Assembly (NCBI GenBank): GCA_004173455.1
Contig: SECL01000013.1
Coordinates: forward strand, 57,216-121,215
Direction of reading: 5' to 3'
DNA: 64,000 bases
Source of the DNA: Moraxellaceae bacterium
GTDB lineage: Bacteria; Pseudomonadota; Gammaproteobacteria; Pseudomonadales; Moraxellaceae
This document shows, piece by piece, positions 42,823 to 53,780 of this stretch. Numbering within the stretch: position 1 is the first letter of the stretch; each line of letters starts with the position of its first letter. Both the position numbers and the translations under genes were made by a program. The notes under the pieces were generated by a model. The model searched no databases. It was not told where the DNA came from and was given only the letters and a program-made list of their open reading frames with translations.

Positions 42823-44418
42823 TTAACTGGCCTGTTTCATGGCAAAGTCGCGGCCAAACAACAGGCGGTTACGGATTGAGCTGATGTCGGTTTGTTCACT
42901 AATGAGTTCGGCATACCATGAACCATCGCGTGCATCGCCATACAGGACGGCACCTTGCACTTGATTGTTTTTCAGGATCAGGCGCTTGTAGATGCCGCGT
43001 TTGGTGTCGCGAATCACCAGATCTTCACAGCTTTCATCACTGTCCAGATTGCCTGCCGAAAACACTTCAACACCACTGACCTTTAATTGAGTAGCAAGCT
43101 GCGTGCCACGATACTGAATGCTGCCGCGTTCGGCCAACTGGGTGGCGCAAACAAAAGCTTGTCCCCACAGCGGCTCAACCAGTCCATAAGCAATACCGCG
43201 ATGCTGCACACATTCGCCCACCGCATACACACGCGGGTCAAAGGTTTGCATGATGTCATTCACCACCACGCCACGTTCGCAGTGCAAGCCCGCAGATTTG
43301 GCCAGTTCAATATTTGGGCGAATACCAACCGCCATCACCACCAGATCCGCCGGAATTTCACGGCCATCTTTCAGCAAAATGCCAGTAACACGTTCATTAC
43401 CCAGAATTTTGTCGGTTTGTGCGCTGAGTTCAATGCGCATGCCACGTTGTTCCAGTGTGGTTTTCAGCATGTCAGCCGCCACATGATCCAGCTGGCGTTC
43501 CATCAGGCGATCCATGAGATGAATAATGGTGACTTTCATGCCACGCTTGTTAAGGCCGTGTGCTGCTTCAAGACCCAAAAGGCCACCGCCAATCACCACC
43601 GCATGCTCATAGTTTTCGGCAGCATCGATCATTTTGTTGATGTCATAAATATCGCGGAACGTGGTGACGCCCTCTAGCTCACGGCCTTCCAGCGGGAGTA
43701 CAAAAGGAGAAGAACCTGTTGCAATCACCAGACGGTCATAGGAGGTGGTATAACCGGATTTAGCCACTACCAGGCGACGTTTGCGGTCAATTTTCACCAC
43801 CTCATCACCGGCATTAAAGGTAATCCCGCGCTCGGCATACCAGCTATGCGGATGCAGCATGATGTCATCCAGCTTTTTTTCACCGGACAATACAGGCGAC
43901 AGCATGATGCGGTTGTAGTTGCCATGTGGCTCGGCACCAAACACTTCAATCTCATACAGATCAGGGGCAATTTCCAGCAGTTCTTCCAGCATGCGCATGC
44001 CCGCTAGACCATTGCCCACCATGACCAGCCGCATTTTTTCTTCACGTGCCTGTGGTGTGGTGATGTAGGTTTTTTGCGGCACACTGCCAATAAAGATAGT
44101 GCCATCTACCACCTGAACCGGATAGGCCGGCACCTGATATTGGGCATCTTCAATACAGCGGCCGGTGGCCAGACTATAATGCTGCTTGTAAATGGGCGAG
44201 GCGACCACACGTTCACCCTGCAAGTCGCCCACAATACCGCGTGACAATACATTGGAACCACTCGCTGGATCATGATTACCAATGGCATAAATCCGGTCAT
44301 CTTCGCGCATGCGGAATACTGCAACCTGCTGGCCATTGATCAGGGCGCATGCACCGGTATCTGGAGCAATTTCTGTTAAGGCGCAAACCTCAATCCATGT
44401 ATTAACCATTTGATTCAT
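42823..44418 (-). CDS. Nitrite reductase small-subunit (NirD) domain fused to FAD/NAD(P) oxidoreductase
   Basis: A 531-residue fusion. Residues 1-115 are a NirD-type Rieske-like fold (ICALTEIAPDTGACALINGQQVAVFRM-like start, VASPIYKQHYSLATGRCIED) that lacks the Rieske Cys/His cluster ligands, as NirD does. From about 127 a pyridine-nucleotide-disulphide oxidoreductase follows: MRLVMVGNGLAGMRMLEELLE, the second GGGLLGLEAAHGLNKRG, and AVGIRPNIELAKSAGL, resembling the N-terminal half of NirB/NasB. It probably passes electrons from NAD(P)H to NasA or NirB; which one is not shown. Confidence 0.85.
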   Translation of the reverse strand: MNQMVNTWIEVCALTEIAPDTGACALINGQQVAVFRMREDDRIYAIGNHDPASGSNVLSRGIVGDLQGERVVASPIYKQHYSLATGRCIEDAQYQVPAYPVQVVDGTIFIGSVPQKTYITTPQAREEKMRLVMVGNGLAGMRMLEELLEIAPDLYEIEVFGAEPHGNYNRIMLSPVLSGEKKLDDIMLHPHSWYAERGITFNAGDEVVKIDRKRRLVVAKSGYTTSYDRLVIATGSSPFVLPLEGRELEGVTTFRDIYDINKMIDAAENYEHAVVIGGGLLGLEAAHGLNKRGMKVTIIHLMDRLMERQLDHVAADMLKTTLEQRGMRIELSAQTDKILGNERVTGILLKDGREIPADLVVMAVGIRPNIELAKSAGLHCERGVVVNDIMQTFDPRVYAVGECVQHRGIAYGLVEPLWGQAFVCATQLAERGSIQYRGTQLATQLKVSGVEVFSAGNLDSDESCEDLVIRDTKRGIYKRLILKNNQVQGAVLYGDARDGSWYAELISEQTDISSIRNRLLFGRDFAMKQAS

Positions 44419-47241: not shown

Positions 47242-48600
47242 TTAAGCAACTTGCTGTTTGTTAAAATCCGCACTGTCACGGCTTGCCTGTTTGGCCAGAA
47301 TGGCTTCATCGAACAGCGCTTGTTCTTTTTGTTTGTGGGCCACACTAAAGCGCACGGCAATGGCGCAGACCGAAGCCACCATCACAAAAATGCCAATCAG
47401 ATGCAGGGTAGATTGCATATCCAGCATTCCTTTGAGCAAAAAGCCTGCGGCCACTGCGCCCACATTGCCACCCGCACCAATGATGCCTGCAACACCGCCT
47501 AGCGAATTGCGGTCGATGAAGGGCACCAGCGCATAGGTCGCACCGCAAGACATGTGAGTAAATAAACCGAAGAACGTCATGGCTAAAATAGCCAGCAATG
47601 GTGTTTGCATACTGGAGAACAACAGCAAGCCAAACCCTTCTAGTAAGATCAGGATGAACAGGAGTAACGTACGGCCATCCAGTCCTTTTGTAAGTGCTAC
47701 CTTGTCAGAAATATAGCCACCCAGCGCACGGGCAAACAGTGCCAGCAAGCCAAATATCCCTGCGGCTAGACCGGCTTGTTTTAAGCTAAAGCCAAATTGG
47801 TCAACATAGTAACTGGCGGCAATGGTATGAATGAAAATTTCCACCCCGAAGCAGGCACCGTAAGTAATAAACAGCATCCACACGCGGTAGTTTTTGGCGG
47901 CAGTCAACAGCACGGCCATGCCACTTTTCTTGCCACTACCGACTTCAAGCCCTTGTTCACGTAGCTCTTTGTAGTTGCCTTCTGGGCAGTCCTGCGTCAG
48001 CTTCCAGTACATGATGCCCACAATCAGCATCAGCACACCGGGAACCAGCAGGGCAATCCGCCAGCCAAGCGCTTGTTCAACCCCAAACATCACAATGGCT
48101 GCCAGAATCAGCGGCATAATGGCCTGAGTTGCACCACCACCAGCATTACCCCAACCCGCAGAAGCTGCGTTGGCAGTACCCACCACATTGGGTGCAAACA
48201 TTACCGAGGTGTGATACTGGGTAATCACAAAGCTGGCACCAATGGCACCAATCAGCAGGCGAAAAAACAGGAAGCTTTCATAGCTTTGCGCGGCAGCCAC
48301 ACCAAAGACAGGAATACAGCCCAGAAGCAGTAGTGCCGAATAGGTTTTGCGTGGGCCAAACCGGTCACACAGCGGCCCAACAATAATGCGCACCACAATG
48401 GTAATTGCCACAGCAGCAATATTGATATTAGCAATCTGGTCTTTGGTCAGGCCAAATTCACCCTTGATCACCGGCATGAGCGGTGCGCAGGCAAACCAGG
48501 CAAAAAAGCAGACAAAAAAAGCCAGCCAGCTTAAATGAAATGCACGCATGGCTGGCGTTTTGAAACTGAATAAGTCTATTGATGTGGCCTTGGACGACAT
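47242..48600 (-). CDS. narK: Nitrate/nitrite transporter (NarK family, MFS)
   Basis: A 452-residue, 12-span major-facilitator protein that imports nitrate (or exchanges nitrite). The nitrate signature appears as GWGNAGGGATQAIMPLI (about 150) and the second as GGVAGIIGAGGNVGAVAAGFLL (about 373). The start is MSSKATSIDLFSFKT, with AGGAG upstream. First gene of the minus-strand nitrate operon; 27 bases precede nirB. The leader holds a sigma-54 promoter and tandem hairpins. Confidence 0.95.
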   Translation of the reverse strand: MSSKATSIDLFSFKTPAMRAFHLSWLAFFVCFFAWFACAPLMPVIKGEFGLTKDQIANINIAAVAITIVVRIIVGPLCDRFGPRKTYSALLLLGCIPVFGVAAAQSYESFLFFRLLIGAIGASFVITQYHTSVMFAPNVVGTANAASAGWGNAGGGATQAIMPLILAAIVMFGVEQALGWRIALLVPGVLMLIVGIMYWKLTQDCPEGNYKELREQGLEVGSGKKSGMAVLLTAAKNYRVWMLFITYGACFGVEIFIHTIAASYYVDQFGFSLKQAGLAAGIFGLLALFARALGGYISDKVALTKGLDGRTLLLFILILLEGFGLLLFSSMQTPLLAILAMTFFGLFTHMSCGATYALVPFIDRNSLGGVAGIIGAGGNVGAVAAGFLLKGMLDMQSTLHLIGIFVMVASVCAIAVRFSVAHKQKEQALFDEAILAKQASRDSADFNKQQVA

Positions 48601-48664
48601 AGCAACTCCTGAAAACCTTAATGGAGGGTTTTTTCAATACAAATTGAAAATAGCCAAACAGAAG

Positions 48665-48684
48665 TGCGGGCGTCGTTGACCGCA
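48665..48684 (-). promoter_or_regulatory. ANTAR-type hairpin P2 in the nas leader
   Basis: On the transcript TGCGG and CCGCA pair, then a T-C mismatch, then a C-G pair closing the hexaloop AACGAC (A at position 1, G at position 4). It follows P1 after 11 bases. Paired hairpins with A1/G4 hexaloops are the known target of ANTAR antiterminators such as NasT. Confidence 0.6.
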
Positions 48685-48695
48685 AAAAATTCTTT

Positions 48696-48719
48696 AACAT
48701 GCTCAACGCTGATCATGTT
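48696..48719 (-). promoter_or_regulatory. ANTAR-type hairpin P1 in the nas leader
   Basis: AACATG and CATGTT pair, then an A-G mismatch, then TC/GA closing the hexaloop AGCGTT (A1, G4). It begins one base after the start predicted from the sigma-54 promoter, so it forms the 5' end of the leader RNA. The NasT gene lies 4 kb away in the same cluster. Confidence 0.6.
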
Positions 48720-48730
48720 GCCAGTAACTA

Positions 48731-48747
48731 AGCAAAGGGTGTGCCAA
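48731..48747 (-). promoter_or_regulatory. Sigma-54 promoter of the nitrate operon
   Basis: Read leftward, TTGGCACACCCTTTGCT has the -24 GG and -12 GC with the required 10 bases between them and matches TGGCAC-N5-TTGCT. Transcription should start near 48720. This implies control by RpoN and an enhancer-binding activator, probably NtrC, under nitrogen limitation. Confidence 0.75.
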
Positions 48748-48864
48748 AATATTAAGTTATTGAATTTATTAAATTATTTTATGATTTGGTTAGGGTTTGA
48801 ATCGAAATATTAATTTTATTCATATATTTTAAAAGGCATGCACTACAATAAATCACTACGTTGG

Positions 48865-48894
48865 TGCATTTATTTGCAACAGCCAGCAAATGCA
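48865..48894. repeat. Inverted repeat upstream of the ModE-like gene and the nas promoter
   Basis: TGCATTT and AAATGCA (7 bases each) flank 16 bases that contain TTTGC/GCAAA. It lies 145-175 bases upstream of the predicted nas start and just before the ModE-like gene's ribosome binding site. The distance suits an activator site for the sigma-54 promoter, but the match to the NtrC consensus is poor. Confidence 0.3.
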
Positions 48895-48927: not shown

Positions 48928-49302
48928 ATGACGACCCAGCTTGAGTCCAGCATTGGCTTTTCCCCCATCGCTGTACGCCTGCGCCTGATGCATCAGGACA
49001 ACATTGCTTTTGGCCCCGGTAAGGCTGATTTGCTCGAAGCAATTGCTCAAAGTGGCTCTATCTCACAGGCTGCCAAACAGATGGGCATGAGTTATCGTCG
49101 TGCCTGGCAACTGGTCGATACCATGAATCGCTGTTTTGCCACCCCGTTGGTAGAAACCCAGGCTGGCGGTAGCTTGGGCGGCGGCACAGCATTGACCCAC
49201 ACTGGGATAAAAGTATTGAATTTATTTAGAAAAATGGAACAGGAGCTGTTGCAGCAAAGCAGCGCTTATCAGCAACAATGGAATGATTTATTAAAGCCCT
49301 GA
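48928..49302 (+). CDS. ModE-like winged-helix regulator without molybdate-binding domain
   Basis: A 124-residue protein with the ModE/LysR-type winged helix: GPGKADLLEAIAQSGSISQAAKQMGMSYRRAWQLVDTMN (about 31-69) and the wing TQAGGSLGGGTALTHTG. ModE of E. coli (262 residues) has two C-terminal molybdate-binding (TOBE/Mop) domains, missing here. Short ModE forms exist in several genera. It precedes modABC, and a ModE-type palindrome lies between it and modA. Divergent from narK. AGGAGAAA precedes the ATG. Confidence 0.88.
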   Translation: MTTQLESSIGFSPIAVRLRLMHQDNIAFGPGKADLLEAIAQSGSISQAAKQMGMSYRRAWQLVDTMNRCFATPLVETQAGGSLGGGTALTHTGIKVLNLFRKMEQELLQQSSAYQQQWNDLLKP

Positions 49303-49360
49303 TGTATTGTTTGCAAAATAATAGTTGTGAGTGCAAGCCAATATGTCTATTTTAACCAAG

Positions 49361-49384
49361 CGTTATATTCTTGCAGATATGACG
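49361..49384. promoter_or_regulatory. ModE-type operator before modA
   Basis: CGTTATAT and ATATGACG, separated by 8 bases, form a near-palindrome (one mismatch) 100 bases before modA. It has the CGTTATAT half-site known from ModE operators of E. coli. TAAGAT (49391-49396) downstream could be a -10 element, so a bound regulator would block it. Confidence 0.55.
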
Positions 49385-49483
49385 GTGTGCTAAGATTCAT
49401 GTGTTCCGCCCAGTTTATTAAACGCATTTATGGTTATATTTCAAGCCAAAAAACCAACCTAGATTTAAACTTTGAGTTAGATA

Positions 49484-50257
49484 ATGAATATATTAAATCC
49501 ATTCATGGCCGTTGGAATACTACTGGCCAGTAGCTTGTCCAGTGTGGCACAGGCAGAAAATATCAAGGTTTATGCGGCCGCCAGCCTGACCAATGCCATT
49601 GGCGATATTGCCAAACAGTTTGAAAAAACCCATCCCAGAACCACAGTCACCCCAGTATTTGGTGCGTCCTCCCTGTTGGCCAAGCAAGTAGAAGCCGGTG
49701 CGCCTGCTGATCTTTTCTTTTCAGCCGATGAAAAATGGATGGATTATCTGGTCAGTAAAAACAAAGTTACAGCCAGTCAGCCAGTGGCTTTACTGAACAA
49801 TCAACTGGTGGTCATTGCACCAAAAGGACGCACGTTTGCCTTTAAGGCACAACCCACTTTTAGATTTGATCAGGCTTTTAAGGGACATGTGTGTACTGGA
49901 CAACTGGAATCCGTACCGGCCGGAATCTATGCCAAACAAAGCTTAGTCAAGCTCAACTGGCTAGACAATCTGCAAGGCCGCATTGTAGAAACGGATGATG
50001 TACGTGGCGCGCTGGCATTTGTTGAACGCGGCGAGTGTGCAGCCGGCATTGTGTATGCCACTGATGCCAAAATTAGCAACAAGGTCAGTGTGGTTGGGGT
50101 GTTACCAGAAAGTACCCATCAGCCGATTATTTATCCTCTGGCTTTAACGGTACAAGGACAGTCAAAACGCGAGGCGCAACAATTTTTGCACTATCTCAAA
50201 AGCAGCCCGGCAGCCCACGCGACTTTTCAGCACTATGGATTTGCAATAAAGCCATGA
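49484..50257 (+). CDS. modA: Molybdate-binding periplasmic protein
   Basis: A 257-residue substrate-binding protein with a signal peptide (cleavage after AQA, residue 24). Motifs: VYAAASLTNAIGDIAKQFEK, FGASSLLAKQVEAGAPADLFFSADEKWMDYL, and the later VERGECAAGIVYATDA, typical of ModA with the molybdate-binding Ser residues. It delivers molybdate to ModBC. 57 bases separate it from modB. Confidence 0.95.
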   Translation: MNILNPFMAVGILLASSLSSVAQAENIKVYAAASLTNAIGDIAKQFEKTHPRTTVTPVFGASSLLAKQVEAGAPADLFFSADEKWMDYLVSKNKVTASQPVALLNNQLVVIAPKGRTFAFKAQPTFRFDQAFKGHVCTGQLESVPAGIYAKQSLVKLNWLDNLQGRIVETDDVRGALAFVERGECAAGIVYATDAKISNKVSVVGVLPESTHQPIIYPLALTVQGQSKREAQQFLHYLKSSPAAHATFQHYGFAIKP

Positions 50258-50314
50258 TCTCTGTCAGCATTCTTGGCTTGAATATCATGATTTTTCATCT
50301 GTTGCGATCTGTTT

Positions 50315-51049
50315 ATGCTGAGTCCCGATGTGCTTCCTGCTGATTTGTTAACACCTCAGGAGCTGAGTGCGCTGTATTTGTCGGCCAAAATTGCGCTGGT
50401 GGCCACACTGATTAGCCTGCCTTTTGCAATGTGGTTAGGCTGGGCTTTGGCGCGTTACCAGTTTCGCGGCAAGTTTATTGTCGAGGCGGCTTTGCAATTG
50501 CCCATGGTATTGCCGCCAGTAGTGCTGGGTTATTTATTATTAATTGCGTTTGGCACGCAAGGCTTTATTGGCCGCTATTTGCTCCAGTGGTTTGATATTC
50601 AATTGGCATTTAACTGGAAAGGTGCAGTACTGGCATCAATGATCATGGCTTTTCCACTCATGGTGCAGCCGATCAAACTGGCATTTCAAATGGTCGATCA
50701 TCGGCTGGAGCAGGCTGCGGCAACACTGGGCGCCAAGCCGTGGCAGGTGTTTTTAACCATTAGTCTGCCACTGGCGAGTTCTGGGGTGATTATTGGCAGT
50801 ATTTTGTGCTTTAGCCGTAGTCTGGGCGAATTTGGTGCAACCATGACCTTTGTGGGCAATATTCCCAGTGAAACCCGGACTATTCCGCTGGCGATTTATT
50901 CCTTTATCCAGCAACCGGATGGTGAAGCTGCGGCTGCTCGCCTTGTGGTGTTGTCCATGTTGCTGGCGTTTGCAGCACTATTGGCCAATTATTGGATCAC
51001 CCAGCGTTACCAGCAAAAAATAGGATACCTGTCACGTGCTCAGTTGTGA
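50315..51049 (+). CDS. modB: Molybdate ABC transporter permease
   Basis: A 244-residue permease with about five membrane spans and the binding-protein-dependent loop EQAAATLGAKPWQVFLTISLPLASSG (about 131-156). The block ALQLPMVLPPVVLGYLLL is typical of ModB. The start MLSPDVLPADLLTPQELSAL is longer at the N terminus than in E. coli. It overlaps modC by 14 bases. Confidence 0.94.
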   Translation: MLSPDVLPADLLTPQELSALYLSAKIALVATLISLPFAMWLGWALARYQFRGKFIVEAALQLPMVLPPVVLGYLLLIAFGTQGFIGRYLLQWFDIQLAFNWKGAVLASMIMAFPLMVQPIKLAFQMVDHRLEQAAATLGAKPWQVFLTISLPLASSGVIIGSILCFSRSLGEFGATMTFVGNIPSETRTIPLAIYSFIQQPDGEAAAARLVVLSMLLAFAALLANYWITQRYQQKIGYLSRAQL

Positions 51050-51728
51050 TATTCGCTATTGGCGTGGCAATTTTGAATTAAACGTGAGTTTTCAGGCGCA
51101 CGTTCACACTCAAGCTATAAACCAGTCCCAGAGTCAAACCCAACTTCAAAATCAATCACAGGTTGTTGGTATTTTAGGAGCTTCTGGCGCAGGTAAAAGT
51201 ACCTTGCTCAAGGTGCTGGCCGGATTGCTCAAACCTCAGCAAGGCCGGATTGATTTTAATGGTCAGAGCTTTTTTGACAGTCAGACTCGTACGTTTATGC
51301 CCAGTTACCAGCGTCATGTTGGACTGGTGTTTCAGGATGGGCAGTTGTTTCCGCATTTAAGCGTGCAGCAAAACCTGCTCTATGGTTACCGGCATTTAAA
51401 GCCAGCCCAGCGTCGTTTTGAGTTGGCGCAGATTGTCGCGCTGCTGGAAATCGAAGCGTTGATAGACCGTCGCACCACTGAGCTTTCAGGCGGGGAAGCA
51501 CAGCGGGTGGCACTGGGGCGGGCGTTGCTGTATTCACCCCAATTATTGTTACTGGATGAGCCATTATCTGCACTGGATGTGCGGCTCAAACAGCAAATCC
51601 TGCCATTCTTTGCCCGTATCCGCGATGAAATCCACATGCCAATGATTTATGTCACCCATCAACCCGCTGAGCTAGAATTTCTGGGCGCACAGATCCTGCA
51701 TATGCAACATGGCAGACTGATTGACTAA
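51036..51728 (+). CDS. modC: Molybdate ABC transporter ATPase, short form without TOBE domain
   Basis: A 230-residue ATPase: Walker A GASGAGKST (about 48-56), Q-loop VFQDGQLFPHLS, signature LSGGEAQRVALGRAL, Walker B LLLLDEPLSALD, and the switch His in YVTHQPAELE. E. coli ModC (352) has a C-terminal TOBE domain that binds molybdate; it is absent. A Gln/Ser/Asn-rich stretch (NQSQSQTQLQNQSQ, about 29-42) sits before Walker A and looks like a small expansion. Convergent with nasS. Confidence 0.93.
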   Translation: MLSCDIRYWRGNFELNVSFQAHVHTQAINQSQSQTQLQNQSQVVGILGASGAGKSTLLKVLAGLLKPQQGRIDFNGQSFFDSQTRTFMPSYQRHVGLVFQDGQLFPHLSVQQNLLYGYRHLKPAQRRFELAQIVALLEIEALIDRRTTELSGGEAQRVALGRALLYSPQLLLLDEPLSALDVRLKQQILPFFARIRDEIHMPMIYVTHQPAELEFLGAQILHMQHGRLID

Positions 51729-51762: not shown

Positions 51763-52926
51763 TTAAGCGCCAACCAGCATGTATTGTGCCTGTTGCTGCG
51801 TCCAGCCTTTACTGATTAAATAATGGACGGCTTGTCGGGTATCAATGGTATGTTTTTGCAGGCTGGACAGGCTTAACTGTTCTGGCAGGTTTTCTTGCTG
51901 GCTCAATAACTGATAGGCAGCATCAAAACAGGCCATATCACAGGATTGCTGCGACAGACTGGCCAGATCAATTGGCTGCTGCCACTGTTGCCAGCGAATA
52001 ATTTGTAGACTCACCCAGGCATAATCTGCTGGCTTGGGTCGTGCATTCAAACCTGTCAAAAAGCGTGCAGGATTACCGGCACTAAAACCTTGCAGTGCCG
52101 CGTTTAGCCAGCTTTCCGGTAGTTCCAGCACATTGAGCTGTTCAAGAATTTTAATCAGCTCGGCATAGTGCGCTTGGGTAGCCAGTTCATATTGTGCTTT
52201 TAACAGCGCTGCTACGAGCGCCCGATGCGTGTTTGGATTGGCCAGCGCCCACGCTTTTGTCACACCCAGTACCTTGTCGGCACCATGTGGCCAGATCGCC
52301 TGTGTATTGGTCACCACTTGTCCAATACCTGCTGATGCAGCAGCGGTATTCCACGGTTCACCCACACAAAATCCATCAATACGGCCAGCTTGCAACTGCT
52401 CAACCATCTGTGAGGGCGGCACAGTATAAAACTCTATGGATTGTTCATCCAGATCAGCCAGCGACAGCCACTCCCGCAATAGATAATGATGCAGCGAAAA
52501 CTGGAATACATGCGCAAGCTTGAGTATCTTGCCTTGTTGCACCACCTGTTGTAACGCCTGTGCATTTTCACGCGGGGTGTTGTGGTGATAATCCATCTCC
52601 AGTTGCTGTGCCAACTGCGATGACAAACTAATCGCAGCCCAGTTTTCAGACAAGGTAAGCGCACTCACAAAAGGCACACCCACCTGATCCGCGCCTAGAT
52701 TAGCCGCCAGAATCATGGGTGCCAGACATTGCGCGGCATCTAATGCACCGTAGGCCAGACGGTCACGCAAACTCGCCCACGACACTTCCTTGGCCAAGCT
52801 GACATCAAGACCAAACTGTTTAAAAAACCCGCGATGCCACGCCCAGATAATAGGTGCAGAATCCAGTAAGGGCATAAAACCAATGGTAACTTGGGTTTTT
52901 TCCAGTGCTTGCAGGCGTGTTTGCAT
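51763..52926 (-). CDS. nasS: Cytosolic nitrate sensor (NasS, NrtA-like)
   Basis: A 387-residue protein of the NrtA/SsuA binding-protein fold but with no signal peptide, fitting NasS. Motifs: VTIGFMPLLDSAPIIWAWHRGFF near residue 13, YGALDAAQCLAPMI, and GRIDGFCVGEPWNTAAAS, the nitrate-pocket stretch. In Azotobacter, Pseudomonas and Paracoccus NasS holds NasT inactive until nitrate or nitrite binds. Its start overlaps the nasT stop (TAATG). Confidence 0.9.
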   Translation of the reverse strand: MQTRLQALEKTQVTIGFMPLLDSAPIIWAWHRGFFKQFGLDVSLAKEVSWASLRDRLAYGALDAAQCLAPMILAANLGADQVGVPFVSALTLSENWAAISLSSQLAQQLEMDYHHNTPRENAQALQQVVQQGKILKLAHVFQFSLHHYLLREWLSLADLDEQSIEFYTVPPSQMVEQLQAGRIDGFCVGEPWNTAAASAGIGQVVTNTQAIWPHGADKVLGVTKAWALANPNTHRALVAALLKAQYELATQAHYAELIKILEQLNVLELPESWLNAALQGFSAGNPARFLTGLNARPKPADYAWVSLQIIRWQQWQQPIDLASLSQQSCDMACFDAAYQLLSQQENLPEQLSLSSLQKHTIDTRQAVHYLISKGWTQQQAQYMLVGA

Positions 52927-53519
52927 TAGTGTTCTCCCTGATGATCCAGCAGTTCGGCGGCGGCCAGTACAATGCGCGCCGCCTCTCCTAGTGTCATGCG
53001 TTTGGCCATGGCATTTTTGCGCAATAGGGCATAGGCGGCATTTTCATCCAGTTGTTTTAAACGCATTAAAATGGCTTTGGCACGGTCTATATCCCGCCGA
53101 TCGGCCAAGCGAGTGCGGGTATCATCCAGATCCGCCAGCAGCTTTTGGTGCTCCTTAAACTGGGCAATCGCCACATCCAGAATGGGTTTTAGGCGCTGGG
53201 CATCAATGCCATCGACAATATAGGCAGTCACGCCGGCACGAACGGCATCACTGATGGTTTGCGGGTCGGATTGCTTGGTAAACAGCACAATAGGGCGCGG
53301 CGCACGTGCCGTCATGTGGGCACAGTTTTCCAGCATATCGCGTGCCGGATTATCCATGTCCACCAGCACAATATCGGCATCTAGCTGCTCGACCACATCA
53401 ACCAGATTGTCCTGTGCAGAAAGCTGTGCAACCACGGTATAGCTGGCCGCCGCCAAAGTTTCAGTCAAATAGGCGGCACGATGAATATCGTCATCAATCA
53501 GGATAATGCGTAACGACAT
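52926..53519 (-). CDS. nasT: ANTAR-domain antiterminator (NasT)
   Basis: A 197-residue response-regulator-like protein. I use the ATG at 53519 (MSLRIILIDDD), preceded by GGAGAA, not the upstream in-frame start at 53543. The receiver domain has DIVLVDMDNP and VLFTKQSDP; the ANTAR RNA-binding domain (about 140-195) contains DRRDIDRAKAILMRLKQLDENAAYALLRKNAMAKRMTL. It should bind the tandem hairpins upstream of narK and allow read-through when nitrate is present. Confidence 0.93.
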   Translation of the reverse strand: MSLRIILIDDDIHRAAYLTETLAAASYTVVAQLSAQDNLVDVVEQLDADIVLVDMDNPARDMLENCAHMTARAPRPIVLFTKQSDPQTISDAVRAGVTAYIVDGIDAQRLKPILDVAIAQFKEHQKLLADLDDTRTRLADRRDIDRAKAILMRLKQLDENAAYALLRKNAMAKRMTLGEAARIVLAAAELLDHQGEH

Positions 53520-53780
53520 GATTTCTCCAACTGGCTGCACCAAAGTGGTGGCTAGCGCTTACAAATGCACGATTCAGCGCCATTGGTGAATCAAACAGGG
53601 TCAAATTCATCATTTATTTTAAGGCAGCATTGCCTGCAATAGAATTTCGGTTTATTTCGTCCGCTAAAACAGCAACAACTCCGCCACCTAATTATCAGCA
53701 GCAGAATTGGTTTGTATTCTTGATCGTTTAAGAAGCAATAACTATGCCGTTCAAGACAACAGCATGGGATTTAGACGTAA

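Follow-up and report, generated by a model that had tools for sequence, protein, structure and literature searches.

In Azotobacter, the NasS–NasT pair controls the nas genes by antitermination at a hairpin-bearing leader. The NasS–NasT systems of Paracoccus and Bradyrhizobium, as described in PMC3795266, PMC5424462 and PMC6759348, share NasT, NasS and a hairpin leader, and control is again ascribed to antitermination. In Paracoccus, NasT is held by NasS when nitrate is absent (PMC3795266). The RNA targets of ANTAR proteins include the EutV, NasR and AmiR leaders. These are tandem stem-loops, here P1 and P2, whose hexaloops have A as the first base and G as the fourth (A1/G4); their stems show compensatory changes, and the genomes that carry them also code for an ANTAR protein (PMC3369931). 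Ramesh et al. (2012) found terminators for approximately 30% of their hits in ANTAR-bearing organisms, and translation control was already proposed there for other, terminator-less hits (PMC3369931). Translation is also the output of the actinobacterial and mycobacterial ANTAR RNAs, which mostly lack terminators; in many of them the dual stem itself covers the ribosome-binding region or the initiation codon, and the protein reportedly acts as a repressor (PMC8164766). The narK leader described here has the tandem A1/G4 stems, the compensatory changes and the ANTAR protein of the first group. It differs from that group, as portrayed in PMC3369931, in that no terminator overlapping P2 was found, the second pair of P2 is mismatched, and P2 is complementary to the ribosome site. 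It likewise shares NasT, NasS and a hairpin leader with the Paracoccus and Bradyrhizobium systems but, unlike those, yields no terminator. Unlike the RNAs of PMC8164766, it places P2 upstream of the ribosome site, and NasT is predicted to activate. Searches of the open PMC literature, PMC8934654 and PMC12316311 included, yielded no paper linking the narK RNA motif with NasT, nor any in which an ANTAR protein activates the translation of nitrate genes, a result that does not prove such papers absent.

The locus lies in a 64,000-nucleotide stretch of DNA (the window) whose source is regarded as an Alkanindiges of the family Moraxellaceae. Among the matches listed, the nearest named narK loci are those of A. 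illinoisensis and A. hydrocarboniclasticus (93%). Features are on the minus strand unless stated otherwise. The nitrate/nitrite transporter gene narK (47242–48600; TIGR00886, 307.6 bits, 4 below the cut-off) is the first of ten minus-strand ORFs in line, which extend to 34425, the limit to which ORFs were listed. Its ATG is at 48600, and its Shine–Dalgarno stretch CAGGAGUUGC (48602–48611) contains CAGGAG. A NasS–NasT pair had been placed nearby in an initial annotation of this DNA, correctly: nasT (52926–53519; ATG at 53519, with the ORF list beginning at TTG 53543) encodes a receiver plus ANTAR protein, no second ANTAR protein having been found in this genome, and its sensor partner is nasS-like (51763–52926; NMT1_2 domain). 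Between narK and nasST, on the plus strand at 48928–51728, lie divergent ORFs that read as a molybdate regulator-like gene, modA, modB and modC, in keeping with the molybdenum cofactor genes downstream. Between nirB and the nitrate reductase gene, window positions 42823–44418 encode a NirD-type Rieske domain fused to a NirB-type N-terminal half.

Sigma-54 promoters are recognized by GG and GC doublets at −24/−12. Both doublets are present in the box upstream of narK, TTGGCAC-N5-TTGC (48732–48747, read by eye and counted as a pattern across the genome), whose core matches at 11 of 11 positions. An RpoN gene is encoded in the same genome. The exact pattern has three listings in the 3.0 Mb genome; with at most one mismatch it occurs at 145 places, against 40 for its reversed version. 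Taking the GC as −13/−12, the narK start is predicted at 48720. The promoter, its exact spacing and its predicted start agree with the first annotation. A start at about 48720 would also make P1 the first element of the narK RNA. The arrangement is general in the family. All 47 Moraxellaceae narK leaders with a P2 have a sigma-54 box matching at 8–11 of 11 positions (11/11 in 21 leaders, 10/11 in 17, 9/11 in 5 and 8/11 in 4). The P1 loop lies 5–11 bases past the predicted start in 44 of the 47, and the predicted transcript thus opens with P1 almost everywhere; of the three exceptions, L027 has a longer leader, and L019 and L050 were mis-assigned by the scan. In four Alkanindiges genomes the region from the predicted +2 through the AT-rich hairpin discussed below is almost identical, and the DNA 5′ of the promoter has drifted. 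A block within that upstream DNA, ATGCACCA...GTAGTG...TAGTGCAT (48838–48869), about 90–120 bp 5′ of the promoter, is largely kept in all four genomes and is a possible enhancer site. The NtrC consensus has no match at up to four mismatches upstream in the four Alkanindiges and none at up to three mismatches across the 47 narK loci.

P1 (48696–48719; hexaloop AGCGTT at 48710–48705) extends from the predicted +2 and forms the first ANTAR stem-loop. After a linker of 11 bases comes P2 (48665–48684; hexaloop AACGAC at 48677–48672), with a U.C mismatch at its second pair. The tandem hairpins were confirmed at these coordinates, with A1 and G4 in both loops. RNAfold of the free leader RNA of the window departs from the first annotation in closing A1–U6 in P1 and leaving P2 unformed, and the whole window leader folds no better than shuffled versions (z −1.02). 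A covariance model of P1/P2 was built on 31 elements, 19 terminator-less and 12 from hits of the Rfam family RF03032; the window leader, itself one of the 31, scores 38.6 bits (E 6.6e-6 for its own genome). Over the alignment 90.6% of P1/P2 cells are paired, against 72.2% after shuffling and 33–52% in slid registers. Changes on both sides occur at 8 of the 11 pairs (70 cells against 21.8 when shuffled), namely at 6 of 7 pairs in P1 and 2 of 4 in P2. Compensatory changes in relatives, which the initial annotation had named as a check, are therefore present, with controls far lower. Within Moraxellaceae P2 varies little, its C.U mismatch becoming U.C (40 and 7 of the 47 leaders). RNAalifold over the whole leader returns P1 and P2 only, and a hypothesis-free column scan ranked a P1 pair first; several other high-ranking pairs of that scan connect columns that are coding or far apart, and appear to be effects of clade or alignment. 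A long hairpin past P2 (P3/P4, CUGAUCG with CGUUCAG) is seen in many Acinetobacter folds, lacks clear covariation and was set aside.

Relatives of narK were found in 38 of 149 Moraxellaceae genomes. Among the 50 listed upstream regions, all of which were read, 47 have the P1/P2 element. The scans demanded A1/G4, and the figure of 47 counts loci having such a P2; by eye, the P1 loop of L050 starts with G. The element is missing at three loci, namely L044 and L048, each a second narK copy, and L046, the sole narK of genome G007. The element co-occurs with an ANTAR protein. Exactly one ANTAR protein is encoded in each of the 37 narK genomes with the element, the window genome included, and none in G007, the single narK genome without it, where L046 retains a sigma-54 box. 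ANTAR proteins occur in 7 of 20 family members without narK. These counts cover Moraxellaceae genomes. The narK leader is likely to be a target RNA of the ANTAR protein NasT; its assignment to NasT is well supported, and NasT would bind P1 and P2.

A described RNA family with the same layout is RF03032, the narK RNA, which reportedly stems from Weinberg et al. (2017). At gathering thresholds Rfam finds nothing in the window. At a relaxed threshold RF03032 matches 48745–48667 with 16.8 bits (E 1.1; gathering cut-off 43.2), the alignment covering the entire model, positions 1–72. Its consensus reads GGCAC-N5-UUGC, then a hairpin with loop AACGGC, then CGAC-AAAGAC-GUCG; the window has the same GGCAC-N5-UUGC, a hairpin with an A1/G4 hexaloop and a second stem, in the same order. 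A search of 369 Gammaproteobacteria genomes with RF03032 returned 16 hits in 15 genomes (L052–L067), two of them above the cut-off. Both hexaloops can be read in 14 of the 16, which also have a terminator of −21 to −39 kcal/mol overlapping P2; the other two, L062 and L066, look like chance. Within 100 bases, 11 of the 14 elements carry a sigma-54 box that matches at nine or more of 11 positions, and 14 of the 15 genomes have a NasT match (E below 1e-30 in 11). On the strength of these hexaloops, boxes and NasT matches, RF03032 reads as a sigma-54 promoter, a NasT P1/P2 target and a terminator, the promoter being common, not universal. RF03032 thereby gains a likely function. The difference from the window is the strong terminator that follows directly after P2 in 14 of 16 RF03032 hits and is lacking in the window leader.

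The missing terminator, already a concern in the initial annotation, was the key to classifying the window leader, which belongs to a terminator-less form. Two scans of this leader found no intrinsic terminator. The AT-rich hairpin at 48631–48650, put forward in the initial annotation as the terminator candidate, is present and lacks a U-run, as was stated there, but neither scan calls it a terminator. The window leader thus shows no terminator overlapping P2, the feature that marks ANTAR antiterminators. Scanning the 47 Moraxellaceae narK leaders gave a strongest candidate of −14.2 kcal/mol, a 61-base AU-ended stem in L041, and next −10.3 in three Alkanindiges including the window; the remaining leaders had weaker candidates or nothing. 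In another set of 50 leaders, drawn from named records that are the best 80 of those listed (46 additional leaders from Moraxellaceae and 4 from Nevskiales), the strongest candidate reached −10.1. Across these 97 leaders of narK type no clear intrinsic terminator was found. The picture outside this group is different. The covariance model of the P1/P2 element, designated R1, was run against the 369 Gammaproteobacteria genomes, and all 26 class-wide elements outside the window's own genome have a terminator, of −16.5 to −39.1; a sigma-54 box of that quality within 100 bases is seen in only 8 of the 26. The terminator counts from R1 and RF03032 depend on each other, since the two sets of hits share roughly ten sites and R1 was trained on a set that included 12 RF03032 hits. 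The two forms also differ within P2. Its second pair is mismatched in 97 of 97 terminator-less leaders (81 C.U, 15 U.C and 1 C.A), found with a search pattern that permitted paired letters too, and is paired in 26 of 26 terminator-type elements (one, L161, was mis-registered by the script and is paired by eye). The P2 mismatch is a sequence mark that sorts the terminator form from the terminator-less form. Both can occur in one lineage, since an Acinetobacter sequence (L031, 3705–3860) has P1–P2, a −21.5 kcal/mol terminator and a sigma-54 box before a formate/nitrite-transporter-like gene (translation by reading). Within the order Nevskiales, the Hydrocarboniphaga leader reads as the terminator form; two loci each from Nevskia and Solimonas are of the terminator-less form.

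In the minimum free energy fold of the window leader, the sequences of P2 are engaged elsewhere. The segment GCACUUCUG (48659–48667), which overlaps the 3′ end of P2, is predicted to pair with the Shine–Dalgarno stretch; in the unconstrained window fold its partner is CAGGAG-U-UGC. ACGACG, the P2 loop plus closing base (48671–48676), is predicted to pair with UGUCGU (48599–48594) in the start region. Most of the Acinetobacter leaders examined in this way pair the 3′ arm of P2 with the Shine–Dalgarno sequence and the 5′ arm with bases ahead of the start codon; the register differs, and the predicted effect is the same. In 40 of the 47 free folds the probability of the outer P2 pair is 0.00–0.01. 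The strongest Shine–Dalgarno partner lies in the P2 loop, the 3′ arm or the next six bases in 40 of 47, at 5–16 bases after the start of the P2 loop. Complementarity was tested by swapping segments between lineages, with permutations. For P2 against the start region in 18 groups, the native mean z is −1.55 and the swapped −0.77 (permutation p 0.0001); of the controls, reversed P2 gives −0.35 with p 0.02, which counts against the reading, and the 25 bases preceding the start region give +0.26 (p 0.58). The nine most distant groups alone give p 0.03. With linker plus P2 in 20 groups, the native mean is −1.85 against −0.77 swapped, and none of 20 000 permutations was as good; the reversed control gives −0.18 (p 0.24), and the Alkanindiges narK leader itself −2.4. 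The permutation p-values are optimistic because the Acinetobacter groups are interrelated. Excess complementarity is absent from both Nevskia leaders.

On average, opening the start region costs more than in shuffled versions (mean z 1.32; 45 leaders, after exclusion of two of the 47 for a mis-assigned P1). The excess is strong in several Acinetobacter and absent in Nevskia, and in the window leader opening costs no more than in shuffles (z −0.02; −0.11 in a second test). Shuffling the 18 P2 bases lowers both start-region pairing and opening cost (mean z 0.81 and 0.80 in 23 leaders). When P2 is forced to fold, predicted Shine–Dalgarno access rises in 25 of the 47 leaders and falls in 11. Taken on its own, the folding of the window leader argues weakly for masking. 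Absolute occlusion of the start region was rejected as a discriminator: the 97 leaders with the element average 10.3, against 3.1, 7.5 and 13.2 in the three without it. Opening energies in the window are 6.2 for narK and 0.4–14.5 for its other genes. Linker–codon pairing, sought by covariation within the family, was also dropped; the register peak is at 0, but the value is 0.709 against 0.708 with permuted partners.

Complementarity between P2 and the ribosome site points to control of translation rather than antitermination. The narK leader probably acts as a translation switch in which P2 sequences mask the ribosome site and NasT relieves the masking. Under nitrogen limitation, RpoN would start narK transcription at about 48720. 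Without nitrate, NasS would hold NasT, and the P2 stem, weakened by its mismatch, would stay open; its loop and 3′ arm would then pair with the narK Shine–Dalgarno and start-codon region. When nitrate is present, NasT would be free to bind both hairpins and keep P2 folded, leaving the ribosome site exposed. Untranslated narK RNA might lower expression of the downstream genes further, by polarity. We infer NasT binding as well as the masking in the cell and the direction of control. The dual control proposed in the initial annotation is retained as regards the sigma-54 promoter, RpoN, the adjoining NasS–NasT pair and the ANTAR target. Its antitermination step is not, given that no clear terminator is seen in 97 leaders and that P2 is instead complementary to the ribosome site.

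Antitermination deserves consideration nonetheless, as the NasT and ANTAR targets of Proteobacteria and Firmicutes treated in PMC3369931 and PMC6759348 are described as antiterminators. It would require a weak terminator overlapping P2 that the scans missed, or the AT-rich stem. One candidate is GCC...GGC at 48671–48653 followed by UAUUUU, which would stop transcription unless NasT folds P2; the terminator of L031 and the −14.2 candidate in the narK-type leader L041 give this view some encouragement. Against it, the two scans find no terminator-like stem in the window leader, GCC...GGC reaches only −3.5 in the sister leader L004, and the lack of clear terminators in narK-type leaders contrasts with obvious ones in every wider element. 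Classical antitermination is accordingly unlikely here. The same lack of an intrinsic terminator would suit Rho-dependent or coupling control, with NasT at P1/P2 blocking Rho or altering pausing and the complementarity being secondary. The porin-site leader described below, nearly 390 bases long with a conserved 9-codon ORF, would also suit Rho. The excess of native over swapped complementarity is not predicted by such control, which we consider rather improbable.

NasT might instead repress, its complex with P1/P2 blocking ribosomes as in the mycobacterial ANTAR RNAs, for which PMC8164766 offers the precedent; as PMC6759348 relates, narK is up in a Bradyrhizobium nasT mutant under denitrification. 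The geometry is unfavourable: P2 ends 53 bases 5′ of the narK Shine–Dalgarno sequence, so bound NasT would not cover it. Moreover, a nitrate-released protein that represses nitrate uptake makes little sense, and another group found narK down without NasT under assimilation (as reported in PMC6759348). Repression by NasT is thus very unlikely. That the hairpins and promoter are functionless neighbours by chance is the least credible possibility and can practically be dismissed: although the window leader does not fold better than shuffles, conservation, co-occurrence with the ANTAR protein and near-identity of the leader in four Alkanindiges beside diverged upstream DNA all speak against chance, and the compensatory changes contradict it.

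Extension of the translation switch beyond this one leader is more tentative. The narK leaders may represent a second class of ANTAR switch, in which NasT activates translation through a mismatched P2, a prospect we rate at somewhat under even chances. This class would have taken the place of the terminator form at the narK genes of Moraxellaceae and of some Nevskiales, and in Alkanindiges would also govern nasT and a 9-codon peptide before a porin gene. If so, the entire nitrate circuit would run on translation switches, and a leader family with ribosome-site masking in place of a terminator would be a direct case of activation. Nitrogen limitation (through RpoN) and nitrate (through NasT) would be linked in a single transcript, inside its initial 60 bases.

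The nasT leader (53751–53517) has a sigma-54-like box AACGGCATAGTTATTGC (53735–53751), identical in four of four Alkanindiges genomes. It is followed by a P1-like hairpin GGC[AATGCT]GCC (53619–53637) and a P2-like hairpin GATTCA.C[AATGGC]G.TGAATC (53571–53592). The latter's loop keeps A1 and G4 in the four genomes and varies at positions 5 and 6 (AATGGC, AATGAC and AATGTT). R1 misses this pair at E <= 1 because of its longer linker. In folds of all four leaders, CCAA of the P2-like strand pairs with UUGG in the nasT Shine–Dalgarno stretch, and autoregulation of nasT is possible. A second element in the window's genome was found by R1 on the same contig, 41 kb outside the window (E 7.8e-5; L149, 1501–1900); there, 388 bases separate the start of the element from the ATG of the porin gene. 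Directly after its P2 come the Shine–Dalgarno sequence GGAGG and a 9-codon ORF, MLIFHDNKT, which is repeated with synonymous changes in a second Alkanindiges genome (L190, 1501–1900). In the fold of the own-genome porin leader the P2 arms pair with the Shine–Dalgarno sequence of this ORF, but not above shuffles. Two further matches were discarded: L150 in the window's genome (E 0.78) is a weak model match, and L191 from another Alkanindiges gives a poor alignment with the porin leader and seems a chance match. Two Acinetobacter sequences (L192 and L193, 1480–1790) have a second terminator-less element before a small ORF, about 285 bases 5′ of a nirB-like gene; in their folds, linker and P2 pair with the coding region of the small ORF. 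Many of the R1 hits among L151–L176 precede genes that read as nitrate ABC transporter binding-protein-like.
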